NCBI GenBank assembly: GCA_947382625.1
Contig: CANDAG010000013.1
Span: 23,292-87,291 of the forward strand
Direction: 5' to 3'
Source: an uncultured Lachnospiraceae bacterium
GTDB lineage: Bacteria; Bacillota; Clostridia; Lachnospirales; Lachnospiraceae
DNA: 64,000 nt
Positions 14,034-47,933 of this stretch are shown piece after piece (within the stretch, counting starts at the first letter, position 1; each line of letters starts with the position of its first letter). A program made the position numbers and the translations under genes. Below the pieces are notes generated by a model, which had not been told where the DNA came from, made no database searches, and saw nothing but the letters and a program-made list of their open reading frames with translations.

Positions 14034-14390
14034 TTATTTGTTAATTGAGTAGATAAAATCTGTTTGTCGGCAACCGCCTGTGCCCGGATCGTTTCCCGCG
14101 AGAATTAAAGCGTCAGCGACGGTGCGGAAATCCTTTGCTTCCTGGGCTGCTTCATAAATGTTGTTGATCAGTGAGGTCACATATCTTTCATGCTCAAGGC
14201 CAGCCTTGAGCGGATCCATTAAAGTCTCAAAGGTCTTGTCCGGCTTTGCGATTGCCTCAAGAGTAACGTTCTCCCCGTTATTATGAAGATACTGATACAT
14301 CAGCATTGCGTGATCCTGCTCTTCCCTGGCCTGGATCTCATACCAGTTGGCGAATCCGTCCAGTCCCTTTCTGCTGTAAAAATTGGCCAT
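14034..14390 (-). pseudogene. ferritin remnant, truncated at both ends
   Basis: The 118-codon frame contains the middle of a bacterial non-heme ferritin: SRKGLDGFANWYEIQAREEQ with the ferroxidase Glu and His (EEQDHAM), then MDPLKAGLEHERYVTSLINN. Intact ferritins are about 165-175 residues. About 25 N-terminal residues before LDMAN are missing, and after AKDFRT the normal helix E and iron ligands are replaced by an unrelated tail (VADALILAGNDPGTGG). A repeat-like palindrome abuts the 5' break at 14409-14449. An iron-storage cage is unlikely to form, so I call it a decayed gene; expression as a short protein cannot be ruled out. Confidence 0.7.
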
Positions 14391-14455: not shown

Positions 14456-15484
14456 CTAAAACATCCCCTCCAGGTACGCCGCCAGCTCCTCTGCCATCTC
14501 TTCCGCCTCCGGAATCCTCAAATGTCCCGGCGTTCCCTTTGCATTCCTGCGAAATACATAGTGGTGTACTCTCTCATCTGCCATATTTCCGCACACCTGA
14601 TCAATAGTCTCATCCCAGGACTCGTCGTGGTTTAAAAGCGTGGTACAGCATACGATATGGGCTTCTGGATACTTCTGACGGATATTTTTAAGGAAAGAGG
14701 CATATCTTTCCTTCCAGATGCGGGCCTTATCCCCCTCCGGATCTTCTTTCATGTAATCCTCCGGATGGGCGTCATTCTGGCCAAGGGCCACGATCACCAC
14801 ATGAGGGATATATTTTGAGAAATCCCATCCGGTCTGTCTGCCAAAGGTCGGATTGTAGTGCACCTTGTCCCAGATGCTTTCCATGCCCACATAATCCGGC
14901 TCACAAAACCAGCCGGTGCCGTCAAGCAGCGCGGCTCCTCCCTGGGCAATATCATGAATTTCCGCATCCAGCTTTCTGGCCGTCATCCAGGCATAGGAGT
15001 ACCAGCTGTTGGAAAACTCCCCGTTATGTGCCGGGTCTTCCTTTCCAATGCAATGAACGGCCTCTGACACCTCACCGGCGGATACAGAGTCTCCATATAC
15101 CTCTATCCTCCGTTTCGGCCTTTCGGGCGGCGGAAGCAGACGGCTTCCTTCGGAAAGCTTAAGCTCCTCCAGCACCAGCTCATGGCAGCTGTCCATCCGC
15201 TTAAAGATCATAATATCATGCTCACTCTCTTCCGTTTCCTCAAGCAGGGTGATCACTGTCTCTCCCTGATCCTCTAAGTCAAATCGCTTCTGCACGCCGT
15301 CTACTATGGCTCCCAGCACATTTTTCCAATAGTTGCAACGGTTTGTGACCTTAAGCGATGCGCTCTTCCCATAAAAGCGAAACCGCAGGGAGGAAGCCGG
15401 AAAGATCAATTCCGGTCTTAATGGATTCTCCCTGTCAATCCTTCCGCTGTAGCTTAACTCTTCTCTGTCAAACGGTATCCTCAT
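14456..15484 (-). CDS. SGNH/GDSL esterase with N-terminal jelly-roll, CE2-like
   Basis: A 342-residue protein. The start is placed at 15484 (MRIPFDREELSYSGRID) because GGAGAGG precedes it. Residues 1 to about 120 are beta-rich (SSLRFRFYGKSASLKVTN), followed by an SGNH hydrolase domain with the nucleophile in YGDSVSAGE, an oxyanion Asn in VALGQNDAHPED and a C-terminal His. This two-domain layout matches carbohydrate esterase family 2, which removes acetyl groups from glycans. There is no signal peptide, so substrates are probably imported. It lies alone next to the ABC operon. CE2 membership is likely but not certain. Confidence 0.72.
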   Translation of the reverse strand: MRIPFDREELSYSGRIDRENPLRPELIFPASSLRFRFYGKSASLKVTNRCNYWKNVLGAIVDGVQKRFDLEDQGETVITLLEETEESEHDIMIFKRMDSCHELVLEELKLSEGSRLLPPPERPKRRIEVYGDSVSAGEVSEAVHCIGKEDPAHNGEFSNSWYSYAWMTARKLDAEIHDIAQGGAALLDGTGWFCEPDYVGMESIWDKVHYNPTFGRQTGWDFSKYIPHVVIVALGQNDAHPEDYMKEDPEGDKARIWKERYASFLKNIRQKYPEAHIVCCTTLLNHDESWDETIDQVCGNMADERVHHYVFRRNAKGTPGHLRIPEAEEMAEELAAYLEGMF

Positions 15485-15548
15485 CTTCTCTTTTCCTCTC
15501 CGCAACAGCCAGACCAAAGCCGGCTGATGCCTTTCCCTCTTTGTAAAT

Positions 15549-16951: not shown

Positions 16952-17839
16952 CTACTCCTTTAGTCCTGAATATATAATGCCCTGCTCCAGATAGTCCTGT
17001 CCGATGATAAACACAAACACTGCCGGCACCAGGGTGACCACACTGGCGCAAAAGGCAAATCCCGCCTGTCCCCAGGTGATCTGAGGCAGATACAGGGACA
17101 GAGGCCATAAAGACTTATCCTCCAGAAACGCCATAGGCTGCTCCATGAGATTCCAATATTCCAGAAAGCCCAGCACCATAGCGGAGAGAAGACCGCTTTT
17201 TCCAAGAGGAAGCCCCAGCCTTACAAATATGGTAAGCTCCCCGGCTCCGTCCACCCTTGCCGCCTCCAGCATCTGGTAAGGGATGCTCTTAAATCCCCCG
17301 TAGGACAAAAATACCGGGAATGTGGAAAATACCGCGGGCCAGATGATGGCCTGATGGGTATTTAAAAGAGAAAGCTCATTCAACACCAGATAGCTTGACA
17401 GCATAGTCACCTGAAAAGGCATAAGCATAAGCACCACATACAGGGCAAACAGTCCCCGGCTTCCCCTTCCCTGATACACTGCAAAGCCCCATGCCGCCGG
17501 TACCGCAAAAAGGAGCTGTCCCGTCAGGATACACAATACCAGCTTCATGGAATTCCAGAACAGAACAAAAAACTGAGGCGTCTCAAACAACAGCTTTCCA
17601 TAATTGGCAAAGGATGGATAATCCGGCACAAGCTTCCACCCGATAAATTCACTTCCATCCGTAAAGACTGTGCTGATGTACCCGCCCAGCTCCCAGGTAT
17701 CCATAAGGGAGCCGGATAAAAGCAATAGTACGGGTAAAAACACCAGCAGAGCCGGCAGGAGCAGAGCCAGAAGCAGAAGCCCTTTTCCTGCCAAATTTCT
17801 CACTTTTATCAATATTTTCCTTTTTTTATCTGTGCCCAT
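16952..17839 (-). CDS. carbohydrate ABC transporter permease, MalG type
   Basis: An approximately 295-residue inner-membrane permease with six predicted helices and the ATPase-docking EAA loop MLEAARVDGAGELTIFVRLG. The start at 17839 (MGTDKKRK; a GTG directly before it is equally possible) follows AAGGAG and lies just after the MalF-type permease stop. The open frame extends upstream but overlaps that gene. It should pair with the MalF-type permease at 17857 and need a shared MsmX-like ATPase encoded elsewhere. Confidence 0.85.
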   Translation of the reverse strand: MGTDKKRKILIKVRNLAGKGLLLLALLLPALLVFLPVLLLLSGSLMDTWELGGYISTVFTDGSEFIGWKLVPDYPSFANYGKLLFETPQFFVLFWNSMKLVLCILTGQLLFAVPAAWGFAVYQGRGSRGLFALYVVLMLMPFQVTMLSSYLVLNELSLLNTHQAIIWPAVFSTFPVFLSYGGFKSIPYQMLEAARVDGAGELTIFVRLGLPLGKSGLLSAMVLGFLEYWNLMEQPMAFLEDKSLWPLSLYLPQITWGQAGFAFCASVVTLVPAVFVFIIGQDYLEQGIIYSGLKE

Positions 17840-17856
17840 CACTATTCTGCATCTCC

Positions 17857-18714
17857 TTACCTGTCCTCCCACAGCCTTTGCAGCAATAAAATTGCGATCA
17901 TCAGAACACCGCCGGTACACACTGCCGCGGCCGCCATTTTGTCAAGCTCCAGATTTACGAACCAGTTGTTGAACAGATGCTGCAGGAGATACATGCTTTG
18001 ATCCGGATAGGCTCCCGCCGTCAGATAGGCCTCCCGGTAGATCTTAAAGGAATTCAGAAAGGATAAGATCACTATAGTAAAAAGACTTCCCTTCAGATTC
18101 GGAAGCACGATCCTCCAAAACCGCTGCCAGCCTCCTGCGCCGTCCACCCTGGCGGCCTCCAGCATTTCCCCGGAGATCCCCCCAAGACCTGCCAGCCACA
18201 GGATCACCGTATAGCCCAGATTTTTCCATACATAGCTTCCCACCAGCACCCAGAAGGCCGTGGCTGTACCGAGATAATCCTTATGTACCTCTCCCCAGAG
18301 GCCCCAGTCAAGTCCGGCCCGGGTGAGAAATAAATTCAAAAATCCCTGCTTATAAAACACCAGCTTCCACACCAGCACCACAGTGGCAGTGGGCATGGCA
18401 AGAGGAAACAGATAAATGGATTTGATCCATCCCTTCTTTTTAAATCTGCTTAGCATCAGTGCCACCATCAGCCCCGCCGAGACCAGAACAGGGATGCATA
18501 CCACCGTAAATTTTATGGTATTTTTCACTGCCAGCAAAAACGCCTGATTCCGGAAAATAGCCTGATAATTTTTTCCTCCGATAAACGCCCCCGTCACCGC
18601 CGTGGTGAAGGAACGCTTCACCACATCCAGAAAGGGCAGAAGGACAAAAACCATGATCCCCAAAAAGCCCGGAAACACAAACAGGCCAAAAAACTTTCTT
18701 CTCTTTTTCTGCAT
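17857..18714 (-). CDS. sugar ABC transporter permease, MalF type
   Basis: A 285-residue six-helix permease (FFGLFVFPGFLGIMVFVLLP at the N-terminus) with the EAA loop EMLEAARVDGAGGWQRFW. It matches MalF/UgpA-type subunits in length. It follows the propeller/solute-binding lipoprotein gene by 20 bases and precedes the MalG-type subunit, so all are likely one transcript under the BlaI-like operator at 21342-21381. Confidence 0.85.
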   Translation of the reverse strand: MQKKRRKFFGLFVFPGFLGIMVFVLLPFLDVVKRSFTTAVTGAFIGGKNYQAIFRNQAFLLAVKNTIKFTVVCIPVLVSAGLMVALMLSRFKKKGWIKSIYLFPLAMPTATVVLVWKLVFYKQGFLNLFLTRAGLDWGLWGEVHKDYLGTATAFWVLVGSYVWKNLGYTVILWLAGLGGISGEMLEAARVDGAGGWQRFWRIVLPNLKGSLFTIVILSFLNSFKIYREAYLTAGAYPDQSMYLLQHLFNNWFVNLELDKMAAAAVCTGGVLMIAILLLQRLWEDR

Positions 18715-18734: not shown

Positions 18735-21212
18735 TTATTCTGCCATATAGATAGCCAGCTTCTGCTCTATGGCATCCAGCGCCTCCTCCAGTTCCTGCTC
18801 TCCCCGGAAATATTTCTGCCCTTCCTCCATCACTGCCTTTTCCAGAACCCTGTCTTCTATATAAGGGGTATCCGCCGACTCCATCCAGCCATAAAACACC
18901 GCAAGCTCTTCTTCTGTGGGCACATAAACATCCAGCTCTGTCTCTATTCCCTCTTCAGAAACCATAACCATAGAACCATACAGCCCGTCTTCCCCTACAT
19001 ACTCCTCATCGGGCCGAAACAGCTCCTCAAGAGCACTGCGGTTGATAGAATAGCCTCCCAGAGCGCATTGGTTCTCCTTTCCAAGAAACAGCGTCAGAAA
19101 ATCCTCCGCCAGCTCCTTCCGGCCGGACGCCGCATTGATGCCAAGCAGGGTCTCGGGGATAAATACTCCTTTGCTCTGCCCTTCCATAAGCGTCAGCGCT
19201 GCGTCTTCACAGCCCTTTGCCTTGTGTACCGAGGTCAGATCATAATAGCCGTAAGGGTAGGTGTTAAGCCCTGTGAGAAGCTTCACATAATCTCCCACAT
19301 AGTCCAGAGACATTCCTCCGTAAAAGGACAGCTCATACTCCCAGTCCTCGCCGTAATCCCGGGCGGAAATTTCTGCAGAGGACTGGAAACGCTCCAGACT
19401 TTTGGCATTGATCCCGTCCATCTGAGCCTCATAGATCCTCTTTGTCTGGGTCAAAAACTCCGAAAGAGCCTCACGGTCAATTTCTCCTCCATCCCCCTTC
19501 CATGCAGGAGCGCTGACTGCGGCAAACATCTTCATGACTCCGATCTCAGAGCTGATCCCGATCAGATCTGCGCCCGGATTGTCCCTGCGCAGCTGTTCCA
19601 TTCCCTCTGCAATGGCGGAAAGACCTTTCATGCCAGATACCAGCTCTTCCTTTCCCAGAAGGATGGGAAAGGCCACCTGTGCAGGGATCATATAGATCTC
19701 CTCCTCTGTTCCAAGGGCGCGGATCAGGTTTGTAAACAGCTCCTCCTCATACTTCCCAACAAACTCATTCAAATTAAGGAGCAGTCCCTTCTGAAGATAG
19801 GAATCTATAGGAAGTCCATCCAGCACCAGCACATCCGGCCCCTGTCCTGCCATGATCTCTGTGTTCAGCTTCTTAAGGGCGTCCTCCCTGGTAACTCCGC
19901 CTCCTTCTTCCATCCCCACCTCATACTCCACATGGACCTCCGGATTCTCCACCTGATAGGCGGAAGCTGCTACCCGGATATCATAGCTTTCTTTCAGGCT
20001 GTACACCTTCAGCTTCTCTGTAGGGACAGAAGCCACATTGGAATCATAAGTAAATTTCACAACCTTTCCGCCGGAAAAAAGAGCAATAAACTCTCCGGTT
20101 TCCAGCCTCAGCATATCCTTGATCCCATACCTGGGACTTCCCAATCTTGAGAGAGAACCGTCAATGAGCTGTTCTACCTCTCCCTGTCCCATCACATAGC
20201 GATGCAGCCCCTTTTTGCCTGCCAGATAAAGGGTTCCTTCCTCTCCCGGAAAAAGAAACAGATCATACCAGCTCCCGCCGTTAAACTGCCTGTCCGGATA
20301 ATTCTCCTTCACAAATTCCGCAAGGACCTGGTCCTCCACGTACTCCTTCTTTTCCATATCATAAAGGATCGGTGCCTCAATGTCATAGCCGTCAATGATC
20401 ATCAGATCTCCCAGGAACTGGATAAGCTGGGGATTTGTCTCCGTATTCAGATATATCTCCGTGCTGCCGTCCTCCTTTACCTCATAAACGCATTCCCTGT
20501 AGGTAGTCATAAAAACCCTTCCGGAATCGGCAAGCCAGAAGTTCGTGGGATAGAGATCATCCTCACCCACAGAGTAAGTCACCGGCAGCTCCGTGCCATC
20601 AGGAAAAAGCAGCGCGCAGTCGGGATTCAGTTCAAACCAGGAGCCTGTGCTTTCCTCTCCGGACTCATCGGAAGCTTCCTCATCCGCCTCGTCCTCACCA
20701 TCTGTATCTGCACCATATCCGTTCGCTTCGTCCTCATCAACATAGATGGCAGCCAAGGTACCGTCCGCCCCGACCTGGACATTCAGCATATATGCTGATG
20801 CACCCTTCTCTTCCAGCCACTGGATGCTCTCCGCCTTCCAGGTCCCTCCCTGATCCTCCGATACCTGAAAGCTCCGATAGCCGTCTGCGATCACCAGCTT
20901 CCCCTCCGGCAGCATCCGCAGATCATAAACCACCTCCAGGGCATCTGACAGATCTGTCTCTTCCTCCACGTACCGCCCCATGGACACTTCCTGCTGATCC
21001 TCTCTGCCGCCTTCTCCTGAGACATTCCCGGAAGGATTGCTTCCCTGAGCCCCATTCTCCCCGAAACCACTTCCTCCCGAGTTTGCCTGCCCTCCGCAGC
21101 CTGAAGAAAGCACCACTGTCACTGCCGTCAAAAGACACATAAGCCTTTTGGCAGACTTAAGTTTCTTCAAAATCTTTTTGTTCAGAAATTTTTTCATAAA
21201 AATACCTTTCAT
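18735..21212 (-). CDS. lipoprotein: Asp-box beta-propeller region fused to ABC solute-binding domain
   Basis: About 825 residues, roughly twice a normal solute-binding protein. A lipoprotein signal ends in LSSGC. Residues about 70-400 look like a beta-propeller/BNR sensor, with an Asp-box VSEDQGGTWKAE (SxDxGxTW) and repeated blade-like phrases, interrupted by an acidic insert. The C-terminal half is a MalE-type binding domain (VAASAYQVENPEVHVEYEVG, ALKKLNTEIMAGQGPDVLVL). It is anchored outside the cell and would feed the two permeases downstream. Start 21212 uses GGAG ten bases upstream; ATG 21197 with AAAGG is an alternative. Ligand unknown. Confidence 0.8.
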   Translation of the reverse strand: MKGIFMKKFLNKKILKKLKSAKRLMCLLTAVTVVLSSGCGGQANSGGSGFGENGAQGSNPSGNVSGEGGREDQQEVSMGRYVEEETDLSDALEVVYDLRMLPEGKLVIADGYRSFQVSEDQGGTWKAESIQWLEEKGASAYMLNVQVGADGTLAAIYVDEDEANGYGADTDGEDEADEEASDESGEESTGSWFELNPDCALLFPDGTELPVTYSVGEDDLYPTNFWLADSGRVFMTTYRECVYEVKEDGSTEIYLNTETNPQLIQFLGDLMIIDGYDIEAPILYDMEKKEYVEDQVLAEFVKENYPDRQFNGGSWYDLFLFPGEEGTLYLAGKKGLHRYVMGQGEVEQLIDGSLSRLGSPRYGIKDMLRLETGEFIALFSGGKVVKFTYDSNVASVPTEKLKVYSLKESYDIRVAASAYQVENPEVHVEYEVGMEEGGGVTREDALKKLNTEIMAGQGPDVLVLDGLPIDSYLQKGLLLNLNEFVGKYEEELFTNLIRALGTEEEIYMIPAQVAFPILLGKEELVSGMKGLSAIAEGMEQLRRDNPGADLIGISSEIGVMKMFAAVSAPAWKGDGGEIDREALSEFLTQTKRIYEAQMDGINAKSLERFQSSAEISARDYGEDWEYELSFYGGMSLDYVGDYVKLLTGLNTYPYGYYDLTSVHKAKGCEDAALTLMEGQSKGVFIPETLLGINAASGRKELAEDFLTLFLGKENQCALGGYSINRSALEELFRPDEEYVGEDGLYGSMVMVSEEGIETELDVYVPTEEELAVFYGWMESADTPYIEDRVLEKAVMEEGQKYFRGEQELEEALDAIEQKLAIYMAE

Positions 21213-21266
21213 TGTTAACTGACTCCTTTCCCATGCTACCCCAGTCCCCTGCGAATCGTTTTTCCA

Positions 21267-21307
21267 GGCAAACGCTGCCACGCTTTGCGGATCAGCTTAT
21301 TGATGAA
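21267..21307 (+). repeat. REP-like short interspersed repeat, copy 2
   Basis: AAACGCTGCCACGCTTTGCG followed by GATCAGCTTATTGAT. Compared with copy 1 the closing stem GCCG/CGGC has become GCTG/CAGC, a compensatory C-G to T-A change that preserves the hairpin. Confidence 0.75.
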
Positions 21308-21341
21308 GATTTCCAGACCACAAAGCCTGAAACGCAAAATG

Positions 21342-21381
21342 ACTACCGCGATAGTCTGTAAATATAGACTATCACAGTAGT
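21342..21381. promoter_or_regulatory. paired BlaI-type operator upstream of the ABC/adaptor operon
   Basis: Two dyads, ACTACCGCGATAGT (21342-21355) and ACTATCACAGTAGT (21368-21381), lie about 130 bp upstream of the propeller/solute-binding gene. They share the ACTA-N6-TAGT core with the pair in front of the blaI-like gene (23667-23703), with similar spacing (26 versus 23 bp). This strongly suggests that the BlaI-like repressor also controls this operon. Confidence 0.7.
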
Positions 21382-21419
21382 CGCTCTATGTCAAATACTT
21401 TTATACACCCTGGGATTCC

Positions 21420-21450
21420 GTAACAGTGAAGCCGAGGGCTAAACTACTAC
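21420..21450 (+). repeat. degenerate GTAAC palindromic repeat
   Basis: GTAACAGTGAAGCCGAGGGC followed by TAAACTACTAC matches the GTAACTATGAAGCC...GGCT element of 15549 and 30368 with several substitutions. It lies just past the stop of the BlaR-like gene. Confidence 0.5.
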
Positions 21451-21464
21451 AAGACATCCCGCAT

Positions 21465-23111
21465 CTACCTCCACCTTCTGGTATACTCCTTTGACTCCTT
21501 TTCCGAAAGATGCCTTAATCCCACAATATTTCCGCTCTGATCATGCTCTGCAACCACACCGGTGGTTCCGGTCTTCTCGCCGGAGGGATTCAAAAACAGC
21601 CGGCCTGAAAAGCCTTCCTCCTCAGGTATGGTATTATCCGCCAGAAAATAAATGGGCTCACCCTCATAAAAAAGCTGATAATCCGTATCCTCAAACCAGA
21701 TACTGACCCCAAACCTCCCATAATCTTCAATCACAATATCTTCAATGGTCTTTTCGTCCATAAGCTGGTCCGCGGAGCCCGGCGATATTTGTTCAGAGGC
21801 CTGCTCCTGCAGGGAATCCGTATATTCTGCCGCACTTACCGCATACTCTGTATCCCCTGTCACAGTTTCCTCCCCGGCCCCGGCTGCTGCTGCATCCTCC
21901 ACCACCACAAAGCTCATCTCTATCCCCGGCATATTCTCCCACGCCACATTTGTATATCCGCCAACAGACAGTCCGCTGTCCTCCTGTATCGTATCCGTTG
22001 CTATCACCGCATATTCCGACGTCTCCCCATCATACTCATACACCGCCGCATTACTCCCTGCAGCATAAGATACATCATAATGGGATCCGAAAGCGGTAAG
22101 TGCCATTCCCACGGCGGCCATCGCCCCCAAAATCCCTCTCGCTGTCACCTTCCTGAATTTCATAACTGCCGTGATCCTTTCGGTCACCGCATTTTTTCCA
22201 AAACCAAGCCCTGTCTGGAATCCCATGCTTTTCTGCTGGGCCATGGAAAGAAGGGCAAGGGCATAATCCTTCCGGCTCTCCTGCTTATTCCGCACCACGG
22301 TCTCATCGCACAAAATCTCCATATCTCTGTTAAACAAAAGAACCATCAGCCACACCAGCGGGTTAAACCAGTGCAGGCACAAAACGCCATGGGCTACAAG
22401 CTTTTTCAGATTGTCGTGATGCCTGATATGCACCAGCTCATGTCTGAGCCAGAAGGCGATCTCTTTTTCCGAATTTTGATACAACCCCTTGGGAAAGACA
22501 ATGGCAGGCCGGAACACTCCATAAGTCACCGGTGATGCCGTGCGGTCGGAAATACAGAATTTCACCCTTTTCATCCGCTCCCTGTCCCTTTCCTCTAACA
22601 GCAAAAGCAGGAGTTGTTTTTCTTTTTCGGACATAGGAAGCCCTTCCCTGAAAAACTGACTGTCACGGTAATAAAGATACAAAGAACCAAGAATCATGAC
22701 AAGAGCCGCCACCCCATAAATCATCCAGGGAAGATTGCTTTTTTGCATGCTTAACGCCAGACCGGACGCTGCCGCCGTATCTCCATTCTCCGTTACTGAT
22801 ATCACAGCCGTCTCTTCTCCGTCCCAGACAGAAGCGCTATGGGCCACCTTCCAGCACACCTTTTCCGATGGTACATCAACAAAAACGCTGCTTACAGCTT
22901 CCACTTTATAGCAATCTAAAGAAATCGCTCCCAGATCACCGAGCCCCGGAAAGGGCATGGGAAGGGCAATCGGAAGCACCAGACGCAAAATCGCGATCTC
23001 CCAGAGCAGGATCATTGCCTTTTTGGGAACATAATTCATAAAAAGGATGCGGAATATGATAATTCCAATGATCAAAATCCCTGCCGTTAAACTCATCTGC
23101 ACCAGGTTCAT
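21465..23111 (-). CDS. BlaR1/MecR1-like M56 membrane metalloprotease without a penicillin-binding domain
   Basis: About 548 residues. Start 23111 (MNLVQMSLTAGILIIG) is chosen with AAAGGAGC upstream; the open frame runs 25 codons further to 23186, but that extension is encoded by tandem REP units. There are four membrane segments and a cytoplasmic zinc-protease motif HELVHIRHHDN with a third-ligand region RDMEILCDE. The C-terminal extracellular part (about 210 residues) has no SxxK or KTG penicillin-binding motifs, so it senses something other than beta-lactams or works through a partner. Family logic: it cleaves or inactivates the adjacent BlaI-like repressor. Confidence 0.85.
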   Translation of the reverse strand: MNLVQMSLTAGILIIGIIIFRILFMNYVPKKAMILLWEIAILRLVLPIALPMPFPGLGDLGAISLDCYKVEAVSSVFVDVPSEKVCWKVAHSASVWDGEETAVISVTENGDTAAASGLALSMQKSNLPWMIYGVAALVMILGSLYLYYRDSQFFREGLPMSEKEKQLLLLLLEERDRERMKRVKFCISDRTASPVTYGVFRPAIVFPKGLYQNSEKEIAFWLRHELVHIRHHDNLKKLVAHGVLCLHWFNPLVWLMVLLFNRDMEILCDETVVRNKQESRKDYALALLSMAQQKSMGFQTGLGFGKNAVTERITAVMKFRKVTARGILGAMAAVGMALTAFGSHYDVSYAAGSNAAVYEYDGETSEYAVIATDTIQEDSGLSVGGYTNVAWENMPGIEMSFVVVEDAAAAGAGEETVTGDTEYAVSAAEYTDSLQEQASEQISPGSADQLMDEKTIEDIVIEDYGRFGVSIWFEDTDYQLFYEGEPIYFLADNTIPEEEGFSGRLFLNPSGEKTGTTGVVAEHDQSGNIVGLRHLSEKESKEYTRRWR

Positions 23112-23135
23112 CTTTTCACTCAGCTCCTTTCCTAA

Positions 23136-23196
23136 CAAACGCCGTTCCGGCTTATTGTTCAAACGCCGTCCCGGCTTATTGTTCAAACGCCGTCCT
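23136..23196 (+). repeat. tandem shortened REP units (24 bp x 2.5)
   Basis: Two 24-bp units CAAACGCCGTTCCGGCTTAT-TGTT and CAAACGCCGTCCCGGCTTAT-TGTT are followed by a 13-base partial unit. Each is the REP family with its central CACGCTTCGCGA removed, leaving a minimal GCCG-TYC-CGGC hairpin. They sit between the blaI-like stop and the blaR-like start. Confidence 0.8.
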
Positions 23197-23198
23197 CT

Positions 23199-23558
23199 TT
23201 ACTCTTCCAGATCATCGATCATCCTCTTAAGCTGCTCGACTTCCTGCTTTGAAAGCTTTTTTCCGTCCAGAAAGGCGGCAAAAAACTTTTCTTTGGAGCC
23301 GTCGAACATCTTATCGATCAGTTCTTCCGTCTCATAGTCCTGAACCTCCTGCCGGGAGATCAGAGCGCTGCACAAAAAGCCGGGCTCTTCTCTTTTGATG
23401 GCGCCTTTATCCACACATTTCTTGATCACCGTGTAGGTAGTATTCCTGTTCCAGCCAATCTCCCCCTTTAATATTTTCACGATCTGCCCCGCCGGAAGAT
23501 CTCCTTCCCGCCATAATACCTCCATCACTTTTCGTTCCGAATCAAACAATTTTATCAT
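23199..23558 (-). CDS. BlaI/MecI-family transcriptional repressor
   Basis: A 119-residue winged-helix repressor beginning MIKLFDSERKVMEVLWREGD, the canonical BlaI/MecI length and start; GGAG lies 11 bases upstream of the ATG at 23558. The DNA-binding region (PAGQIVKILKGEIGWNRNTT) and the C-terminal dimerisation helices (ETEELIDKMFDGSKEKFF ... LSKQEVEQLKRMIDDLEE) are intact. It is followed by the M56 protease. Paired dyads at 23667-23703 upstream indicate autorepression, and a similar pair at 21342-21381 indicates control of the ABC operon. Confidence 0.9.
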   Translation of the reverse strand: MIKLFDSERKVMEVLWREGDLPAGQIVKILKGEIGWNRNTTYTVIKKCVDKGAIKREEPGFLCSALISRQEVQDYETEELIDKMFDGSKEKFFAAFLDGKKLSKQEVEQLKRMIDDLEE

Positions 23559-23593
23559 GTTGTAATGTCTCCTCTCTTTTCCAAACAAATCTG

Positions 23594-23659
23594 ACAACGA
23601 TACGCTTCGTGAGACGGCTTATTGGCCAAACGTCGACTCGCTTCGCAAGACGGCCAATC
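23594..23659 (+). repeat. two adjacent REP-like units upstream of blaI
   Basis: Unit A (23594-23625) contains ATACGCTTCGTGAGACGGCT-TATTGG and unit B (23626-23659) CAAACGTCGACTCGCTTCGC-AAGACGGCC. They lie between the blaI operator and its ribosome site and so would be part of the transcribed leader. Confidence 0.7.
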
Positions 23660-23666
23660 AAAAAAG

Positions 23667-23703
23667 ACTATCGCAATAGTTGTTTAAATACTATCACGAT
23701 AGT
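23667..23703. promoter_or_regulatory. paired BlaI-type operator in front of blaI
   Basis: ACTATCGCAATAGT (23667-23680) and ACTATCACGATAGT (23690-23703) are two 14-bp dyads 23 bp apart, upstream of the BlaI-like repressor. This is the double-operator arrangement expected for an autoregulated BlaI/MecI protein. Confidence 0.75.
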
Positions 23704-47872: not shown

Positions 47873-47933
47873 ACTATATTTATAGTAAATATCCAGCAAT
47901 TCAGCCCATAAGAATACAGGAAATATCCTGTAT
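47873..47933. promoter_or_regulatory. two dyads upstream of the AGCS symporter
   Basis: ACTATATTTATAGT (47873-47886) has the same ACTAT-N4-ATAGT form as the BlaI-type operators at 23667 and 23690. ATACAGGA-AATA-TCCTGTAT (47914-47933) is a second dyad close to the start codon. The first could be chance in AT-rich DNA; the second may be a leader hairpin or operator. Confidence 0.35.

Follow-up and report, generated by a model that had tools for sequence, protein, structure and literature searches.

What does a BlaI-type repressor with an M56 sensor control when it stands before a transporter operon, and why does that operon combine importer-type permeases with an exporter-type adaptor? These questions are raised by the 64,000-nucleotide stretch analyzed here (the window; part of G000:C13 in a 4.18-Mb draft genome of an uncultured gut bacterium of the Lachnospiraceae). 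Its minus strand carries, in this order, blaI, M56, an intergenic stretch with two ACTA-N6-TAGT dyads, a lipoprotein in which a propeller precedes a solute-binding protein (SBP) domain, MalF, MalG, and a HlyD-type adaptor (Table 1). From sequence comparison, we consider it probable that these genes encode a composite ABC transporter, i.e., a type-I importer core with a MacA/MacB-like extracytoplasmic part, under a BlaI/M56 switch acting through an operator-promoter. PMC5985334 assigns ABC importers and MacB-type mechanotransmission systems to different classes, and a module keeping parts of both in many Clostridia would show that this boundary can be crossed. Searches of open-license papers yielded no description of the module.

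Hereafter, G and L numbers denote the genomes and fetched loci of this comparison; G028 belongs to the same genus as G000, and the class-1 loci (n = 22) are the window, L033 to L051, L074, and L081. L033 and L073, as well as L074 and L216, come from different locus collections and have identical DNA. Gene counts were obtained with a caller of open reading frames (ORFs) that overlooks some genes.

Table 1. Features of the BlaI/M56 switch and the transporter operon in the window
Feature	Positions	Strand	Basis
Dyad pair, candidate operator of blaI-M56 genes	23667..23703		ACTA-N6-TAGT pattern
BlaI/MecI-type repressor	23199..23597	-	Penicillinase_R 7.2e-25, 88 bits (cut-off 22.6)
M56 (BlaR1-like) membrane metalloprotease sensor	21465..23186	-	M56 domain with HEXXH
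Transporter operon promoter	21366..21394	-	TTGACA (21394-21389), 17-bp spacer, TAGTCT (21371-21366)
Dyad pair, candidate operator of transporter operon	21342..21381		ACTA-N6-TAGT pattern, conserved in relatives
Propeller-SBP lipoprotein	18735..21281	-	SBP_bac_1 1.6e-8; structure model and fold comparison
MalF-type permease	17857..18714	-	BPD_transp_1 3.5e-16; EAA loop EAARVDGAG
MalG-type permease	16952..17920	-	BPD_transp_1 8.8e-10; EAA loop EAARVDGAG
MacA/HlyD-type membrane-fusion adaptor, N-terminal helix	15634..16944	-	HlyD_3 7.6e-6

Operators and promoters

The window contains five copies of the ACTA-N6-TAGT pattern, compared with an expectation of 0.24, and tandem pairs of it occur only twice genome-wide, before blaI and before the transporter operon. 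The first-pass annotation of this DNA had placed paired dyads at these two sites, and both pairs are indeed present in the sequence. The lone fifth dyad (positions 47873 to 47886) was rejected as a third operator; it is unpaired, has two mismatches to the refined pattern, and is probably a chance occurrence.

The operon dyads pointed out in that annotation are kept in relatives: exactly two precede the SBP gene (or MalF where the SBP is missing) in 21 of the 22 class-1 loci. A G precedes the dyad in 42 of 42 cases and a C follows it in 41, with a spacing of 23 to 29 bases within operon pairs and of 22 to 28 bases in five blaI pairs. The strict 16-mer GACTAYYRYRRTAGTC was found in 24 of the 37 genus genomes, and its reversed control matched in 4.

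These dyads are embedded in a promoter of fixed geometry. TTGACA-N17-TAGTCT lies at a single distance from them in 21 of 21 loci, and eight other offsets gave zero matches. In the window, the first dyad sits in the -35/-10 spacer and its right half forms the -10 box (which falls below the threshold of the consensus scan that missed this promoter), while the second likely covers the region where transcription starts; a repressor bound there, as this observed anatomy suggests, should block RNA polymerase directly. The blaI dyad pair is overlapped by a promoter-like site, TTGACA-N17-TAGTAT (minus strand, 23716 to 23688). At least one dyad of the ACTA-N6-TAGT type precedes blaI in 15 of the 17 loci that contain this gene, and an exact TTGACA stands at the same distance in 6 of 15, a count lowered in part by the frequent degeneracy of one blaI dyad, in which case the other served as the anchor. 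From these comparisons, we infer that the operon is regulated through BlaI-type operators, a conclusion that they support well.

Dyads of this type also occur as a pair in L211 (13490 to 13532; G029) and L212 (10077 to 10119; G021), where they stand before an ORF of 181 aa. The start of this ORF is signal-like, none of its Pfam matches exceeds a cut-off, and related BlaI proteins might control it as a second target.

The repressor and the sensor

The repressor, which judging from relatives likely starts at the internal ATG of MIKLFDSERK, scores below every cut-off of the NCBIfam BlaI/MecI models of resistance operons; its best NCBIfam score, 63 bits, is for CopY and lies below the CopY cut-off of 122 bits. 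The sensor had been described as having a protease motif and no penicillin-binding domain, a description that stands: HEXXH is present in 30 of 30 aligned M56 rows (several rows duplicate a gene already in the set), and no penicillin-binding domain was found, with no Pfam family matching the C-terminal 241 residues at an E value of 0.1. The sensor's blaR1_generic score is 79.5 bits against a cut-off of 400.

The switch thus resembles BlaI-BlaR1 and MecI-MecR1 in having a Penicillinase_R repressor, an adjoining M56 protein with HEXXH, and paired dyads at its own gene and at the target. It differs from them in the sensor's C terminus just described, in its target (a transporter operon, not a gene for a beta-lactamase or penicillin-binding protein), and in its inner operator bases, which read YYRYRR versus the TACA/TGTA core given in a section of PMC7253601. 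The CopY/CopR copper repressors are members of the same superfamily and, according to that section, use two operators per promoter (PMC7253601); unlike them, the window's repressor adjoins an M56 protease and stays below the CopY cut-off. The fixed promoter-operator of the transporter operon represents a ready reporter for what a non-beta-lactam M56/BlaI pair senses.

Regulator and operator largely travel together. BlaI orthologs of at least 79% identity (79 to 92%) occur in 20 of the 37 genus genomes (i.e., 19 besides G000), and dyads precede a class-1 operon in 20 of the 37, 18 of which have such an ortholog. G014 has a class-1 operon and neither dyads nor a BlaI ortholog. The BlaI/M56 genes lie about 10 kb and 6 kb away in G008 and G032, respectively, and on another contig in G035, and the dyads still precede the SBP gene in these genomes, which argues for action in trans.

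Conservation of the transporter module

The propeller-SBP, which probably starts near 21212 or 21197, combines an N-terminal beta-propeller containing an Asp-box-like stretch with a C-terminal solute-binding domain. The structure model of the adaptor matches AcrA, TMexC, and MacA. As in the AcrA and MexA adaptors of RND efflux pumps, the fold is that of an adaptor, but the RND_mfp score of 72 (3e-20) is below the cut-off of 95, and no RND pump partner was found among the 10 ORFs scanned between 12861 and 24403, the rest of the genome not having been searched.

A search with the adaptor alone in 299 genomes of the family (298 genera) matched 40 genomes at an E value of 1e-15. From 35 of the 38 matched genomes other than G000 and G028, 40 regions were fetched, in which the same strand carried within 6 kb MalF (37 regions), MalG (38), a large SBP (36), and a protein of the periplasmic core domain (PCD) type found in MacB (33). 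On these counts, the adaptor was rejected as a chance neighbor. An independent search with a PCD profile in 391 genomes of the class matched 28 at 1e-8; regions from 20 of the 27 other than G000 were fetched, and the adaptor was present in 19 of them and both MalF and MalG in 17. A sample of 398 genomes of the phylum gave 7 matches at 1e-10, with four new loci, two of which (L273 and L274) carry the module and two of which are ordinary adaptor-ATPase-MacB operons. Strict-pattern EAA loops were found in 74 of 106 MalF and 85 of 106 MalG proteins. The adaptor, whose presence in relatives' operons had been singled out for checking, is part of the operon at all 38 class-1/2 loci, and the initial remark that importer permeases with an exporter adaptor do not form a standard module is borne out in that the 40 adaptor-found regions reveal a recurrent, unusual combination.

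Among 34 aligned proteins encoded next after the adaptor, 17 passed MacB_PCD (Pfam, E value of 0.001) and 13 overlap the adaptor gene by 4 bases. Hydropathy, a crude method, indicates for several the layout helix, PCD, two helices, a loop with P-x-x-W-S-D-F-x-F-W, and helix, an order that we take to be like that of FtsX-type permeases. No PCD gene was found in any of the 38 class-1/2 loci, its absence from L046, L057, and L068 being uninformative because their contigs end just past the adaptor. Gene order is altered in L146 and L154, with the gene set complete. Variation in SBP number was also seen: a single module in L120 has three SBP-like genes, including one placed between those for MalF and MalG, and L066 has two SBPs in a row.

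An ATPase of 360 to 372 aa with OB_MalK lies directly beside the module in L146, L154, L260, L261, and L273, and a MalK-type ATPase lies 1.4 kb from it in L150. The window's operon has none, and one OB_MalK protein over the cut-off is encoded elsewhere in its genome. Importers such as the MsmX-dependent CUT1 systems are known to use a shared ATPase whose gene lies at another site (PMC7658222). A nearby MacB-type ATPase was rejected by a motif search, a crude test that found no ATPase of 200 to 260 aa within 3 kb for the 93 module rows of the tree described below; the ATPases of ordinary HlyD-ATPase-MacB operons (L265, L275, and L276) have 224 to 243 aa.

The module therefore shares features with two kinds of known transporter. 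Like MalFGK2 and MsmX-dependent CUT1 importers, it has a solute-binding lipoprotein, two EAA-loop permeases, and, in the operon of five relatives, a MalK-type ATPase; what sets it apart is the propeller carried by its binding protein, its MacA-type adaptor, and the MacB_PCD protein present in most relatives beyond the window's branch. Like MacAB-TolC and the Gram-positive YknXYZ/SpMacAB, it has a MacA-like adaptor and, in relatives, a protein with the MacB periplasmic core domain and, by crude hydropathy, an FtsX-like helix order; unlike them, MalF and MalG accompany the adaptor without a MacB-type ATPase detectable by motif, and the window also lacks the PCD protein. Such natural variation in gene order and in the presence of PCD and ATPase could be used to dissect what each part does.

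Phylogeny of the module

A FastTree phylogeny of combined MalF, MalG, and HlyD sequences was built with 93 rows from 105 loci (L034, L074, and L081 are absent) and rooted at the midpoint. The 43 rows without PCD, including the window, form one clade with full local support, nested under this root within PCD-bearing rows. Within this branch, the 18 dyad-bearing rows form one clade (support, 98), and its nearest kin (L051, L064, and L065) have no dyads. The most economical history suggested by the tree is one loss of PCD followed by one gain of BlaI control, although the choice of loss over gain depends on the midpoint root. Genes for a response regulator (RR) and histidine kinase (HK) occur in the region of 40 of the 93 rows, and near many copies of the module such a two-component system takes the place of BlaI. 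In L033 and L035, the dyads coexist with a nearby two-component pair; BlaI may thus have joined an older control before replacing it.

Proposed mechanism and alternatives

In the mechanism that we propose, an extracytoplasmic signal other than beta-lactam binding would activate the M56 sensor, which, by analogy with BlaR1/BlaI, would inactivate the BlaI-type repressor and free two operator-promoters, that of the repressor itself and that of the four-gene operon. MalF and MalG would form the translocating core, powered by an ATPase of the MalK/MsmX type from another site of the genome; the propeller and solute-binding lipoprotein would capture the ligand, and the MacA-type adaptor would assemble above the MalFG core. 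In most relatives outside this branch, the adaptor would work with an ATPase-less MacB_PCD membrane protein. The adaptor part is most likely an extracytoplasmic chamber or conduit that passes a large or envelope-bound ligand between the propeller-SBP and MalFG, which favors import or surveillance of an envelope-derived ligand as somewhat more likely than export. What the comparison shows is the linkage of the module, the operator-promoter, the lack of the PCD partner in this branch, and the grouping of BlaI-type operators in a single clade; we infer the signal, ligand, direction, stoichiometry, and physical complex, and it is gene linkage that points to a composite transporter. The idea of a non-beta-lactam circuit serving transport or envelope defense, put forward in the first-pass annotation, is partly supported, by the conserved operon dyads accompanied by a BlaI ortholog and by a sensor in which no penicillin-binding domain was found; this support does not extend to envelope defense.

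Several observations weigh against this reading. G025 (96% complete) and G031 (78% complete) have the dyads and no BlaI ortholog of at least 79% identity. In G015 and G030, the ortholog is present and blaI itself is preceded by dyads, and no class-1 transporter operon was found in either genome. The coexistence of dyads and a two-component pair in L033 and L035 suggests that BlaI may supplement rather than replace two-component control. The 21 dyad-bearing loci are not independent, L048 and L049 being nearly identical. On the transporter side, the window's operon contains neither a PCD gene nor an ATPase gene, so that a single adaptor-permease complex rests on gene linkage; the strict EAA pattern is missed by 32 of 106 MalF and 21 of 106 MalG proteins; and L074 retains the operator, MalF, MalG, and HlyD with the SBP missing. 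The structure models are weak as well, with a mean predicted local distance difference test (pLDDT) of 62 for the propeller-SBP, whose SBP half is poor, and a predicted template modeling score (pTM) of 0.35 for the adaptor.

A stronger form of the proposal, which we hold only tentatively, is that the type-I importer core and its MalK-type ATPase are physically coupled to the MacA-type adaptor and an ATPase-less MacB_PCD/FtsX-like protein and served by a binding protein that bears a propeller, a single ATPase thereby driving both ligand translocation and extracytoplasmic mechanotransmission; in this genus, the assembly would have been reduced to the adaptor under a non-beta-lactam BlaI/M56 switch.

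Of the alternatives, an exporter or envelope-defense pump comparable to MacAB, YknXYZ, or BceAB survives best, although we regard it as unlikely. In this view, BlaI/M56 or a neighboring two-component system would induce a pump of MalFG, adaptor, and PCD that clears the membrane or wall of an antimicrobial. The adaptor and PCD families are those of efflux and peptide-detoxification systems in passages of PMC5985334, and a BlaI-family repressor, like the RR/HK genes near 40 of the 93 tree rows, fits a stress response. However, EAA-loop permeases and a solute-binding protein are importer parts, and the ATPases adjacent to the module are MalK-type, unlike those of L265, L275, and L276. A sensory complex, in which the propeller-SBP and adaptor measure the state of the envelope and MalFG/ATPase cycling resets the sensor for a two-component system or M56, appears improbable: propeller sensors do exist (PDB matches of the propeller-SBP model include the periplasmic part of BT4663) and RR/HK genes lie near many module copies, but the module is unchanged where BlaI/M56 lies elsewhere in the genome.

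We give little credence to an ordinary sugar importer, with MalF, MalG, and SBP taking up a saccharide and the HlyD adaptor as an operon passenger serving another pump. The closest PDB match of the propeller-SBP by sequence is sugar-binding CbpC (7x0o, 3e-10), which falls to the SBP domain, and models of sugar and glycerol-phosphate permeases match MalF and MalG, in every case with scores below their cut-offs; against this, the adaptor stays with MalF and MalG under both queries (37/40 and 38/40, respectively, with the adaptor query and 17/20 with the PCD query), through changes of gene order. Very improbable is conservation of the dyads for another cause (an mRNA hairpin or a different regulator than BlaI), which G025 and G031 and the ability of the pair to fold as a stem-loop (listed as terminator-like by the scan) would suit, but which has against it the same kind of dyad before blaI, the fixed position relative to the promoter, the joint absence of dyads and ortholog in G014, and outer half-sites, ACTA/TAGT, that we take to be like those of the mec operator.

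Other copies and neighboring genes

The window's genome also carries a class-2 copy (G000:C14) and a PCD-bearing module with two SBPs (G000:C50). The latter, fetched as L072 (5265 to 15247), is a fuller module that comprises an SBP, MalF, MalG, a 686-aa adaptor, a MacB_PCD protein, and another SBP. The PCD protein of this module might act in trans for the window copy. In L074 (8076 to 8236; the contig is that of G012:C8), MalF directly follows the operator pair, and the missing SBP gene reflects either a deletion or an assembly fault. The BlaI/M56 orthologs of G015 and G030 (L214 and L215) belong to tandem arrays that also include further BlaI/M56 pairs and large ORFs (1162 to 1190 aa).

Downstream of the operon, a CE2-type SGNH esterase (14456 to 15517) begins 117 bases past the adaptor gene and is accompanied by a short ferritin-like ORF (14034 to 14390; 118 aa). 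Both were rejected as members of the module, since tblastn at 1e-8 detected neither of them in the loci L033 to L072 (n = 40). The ferritin-like ORF matches the ferritin profile only from position 21 and may either start farther upstream or be truncated at its 5' end.

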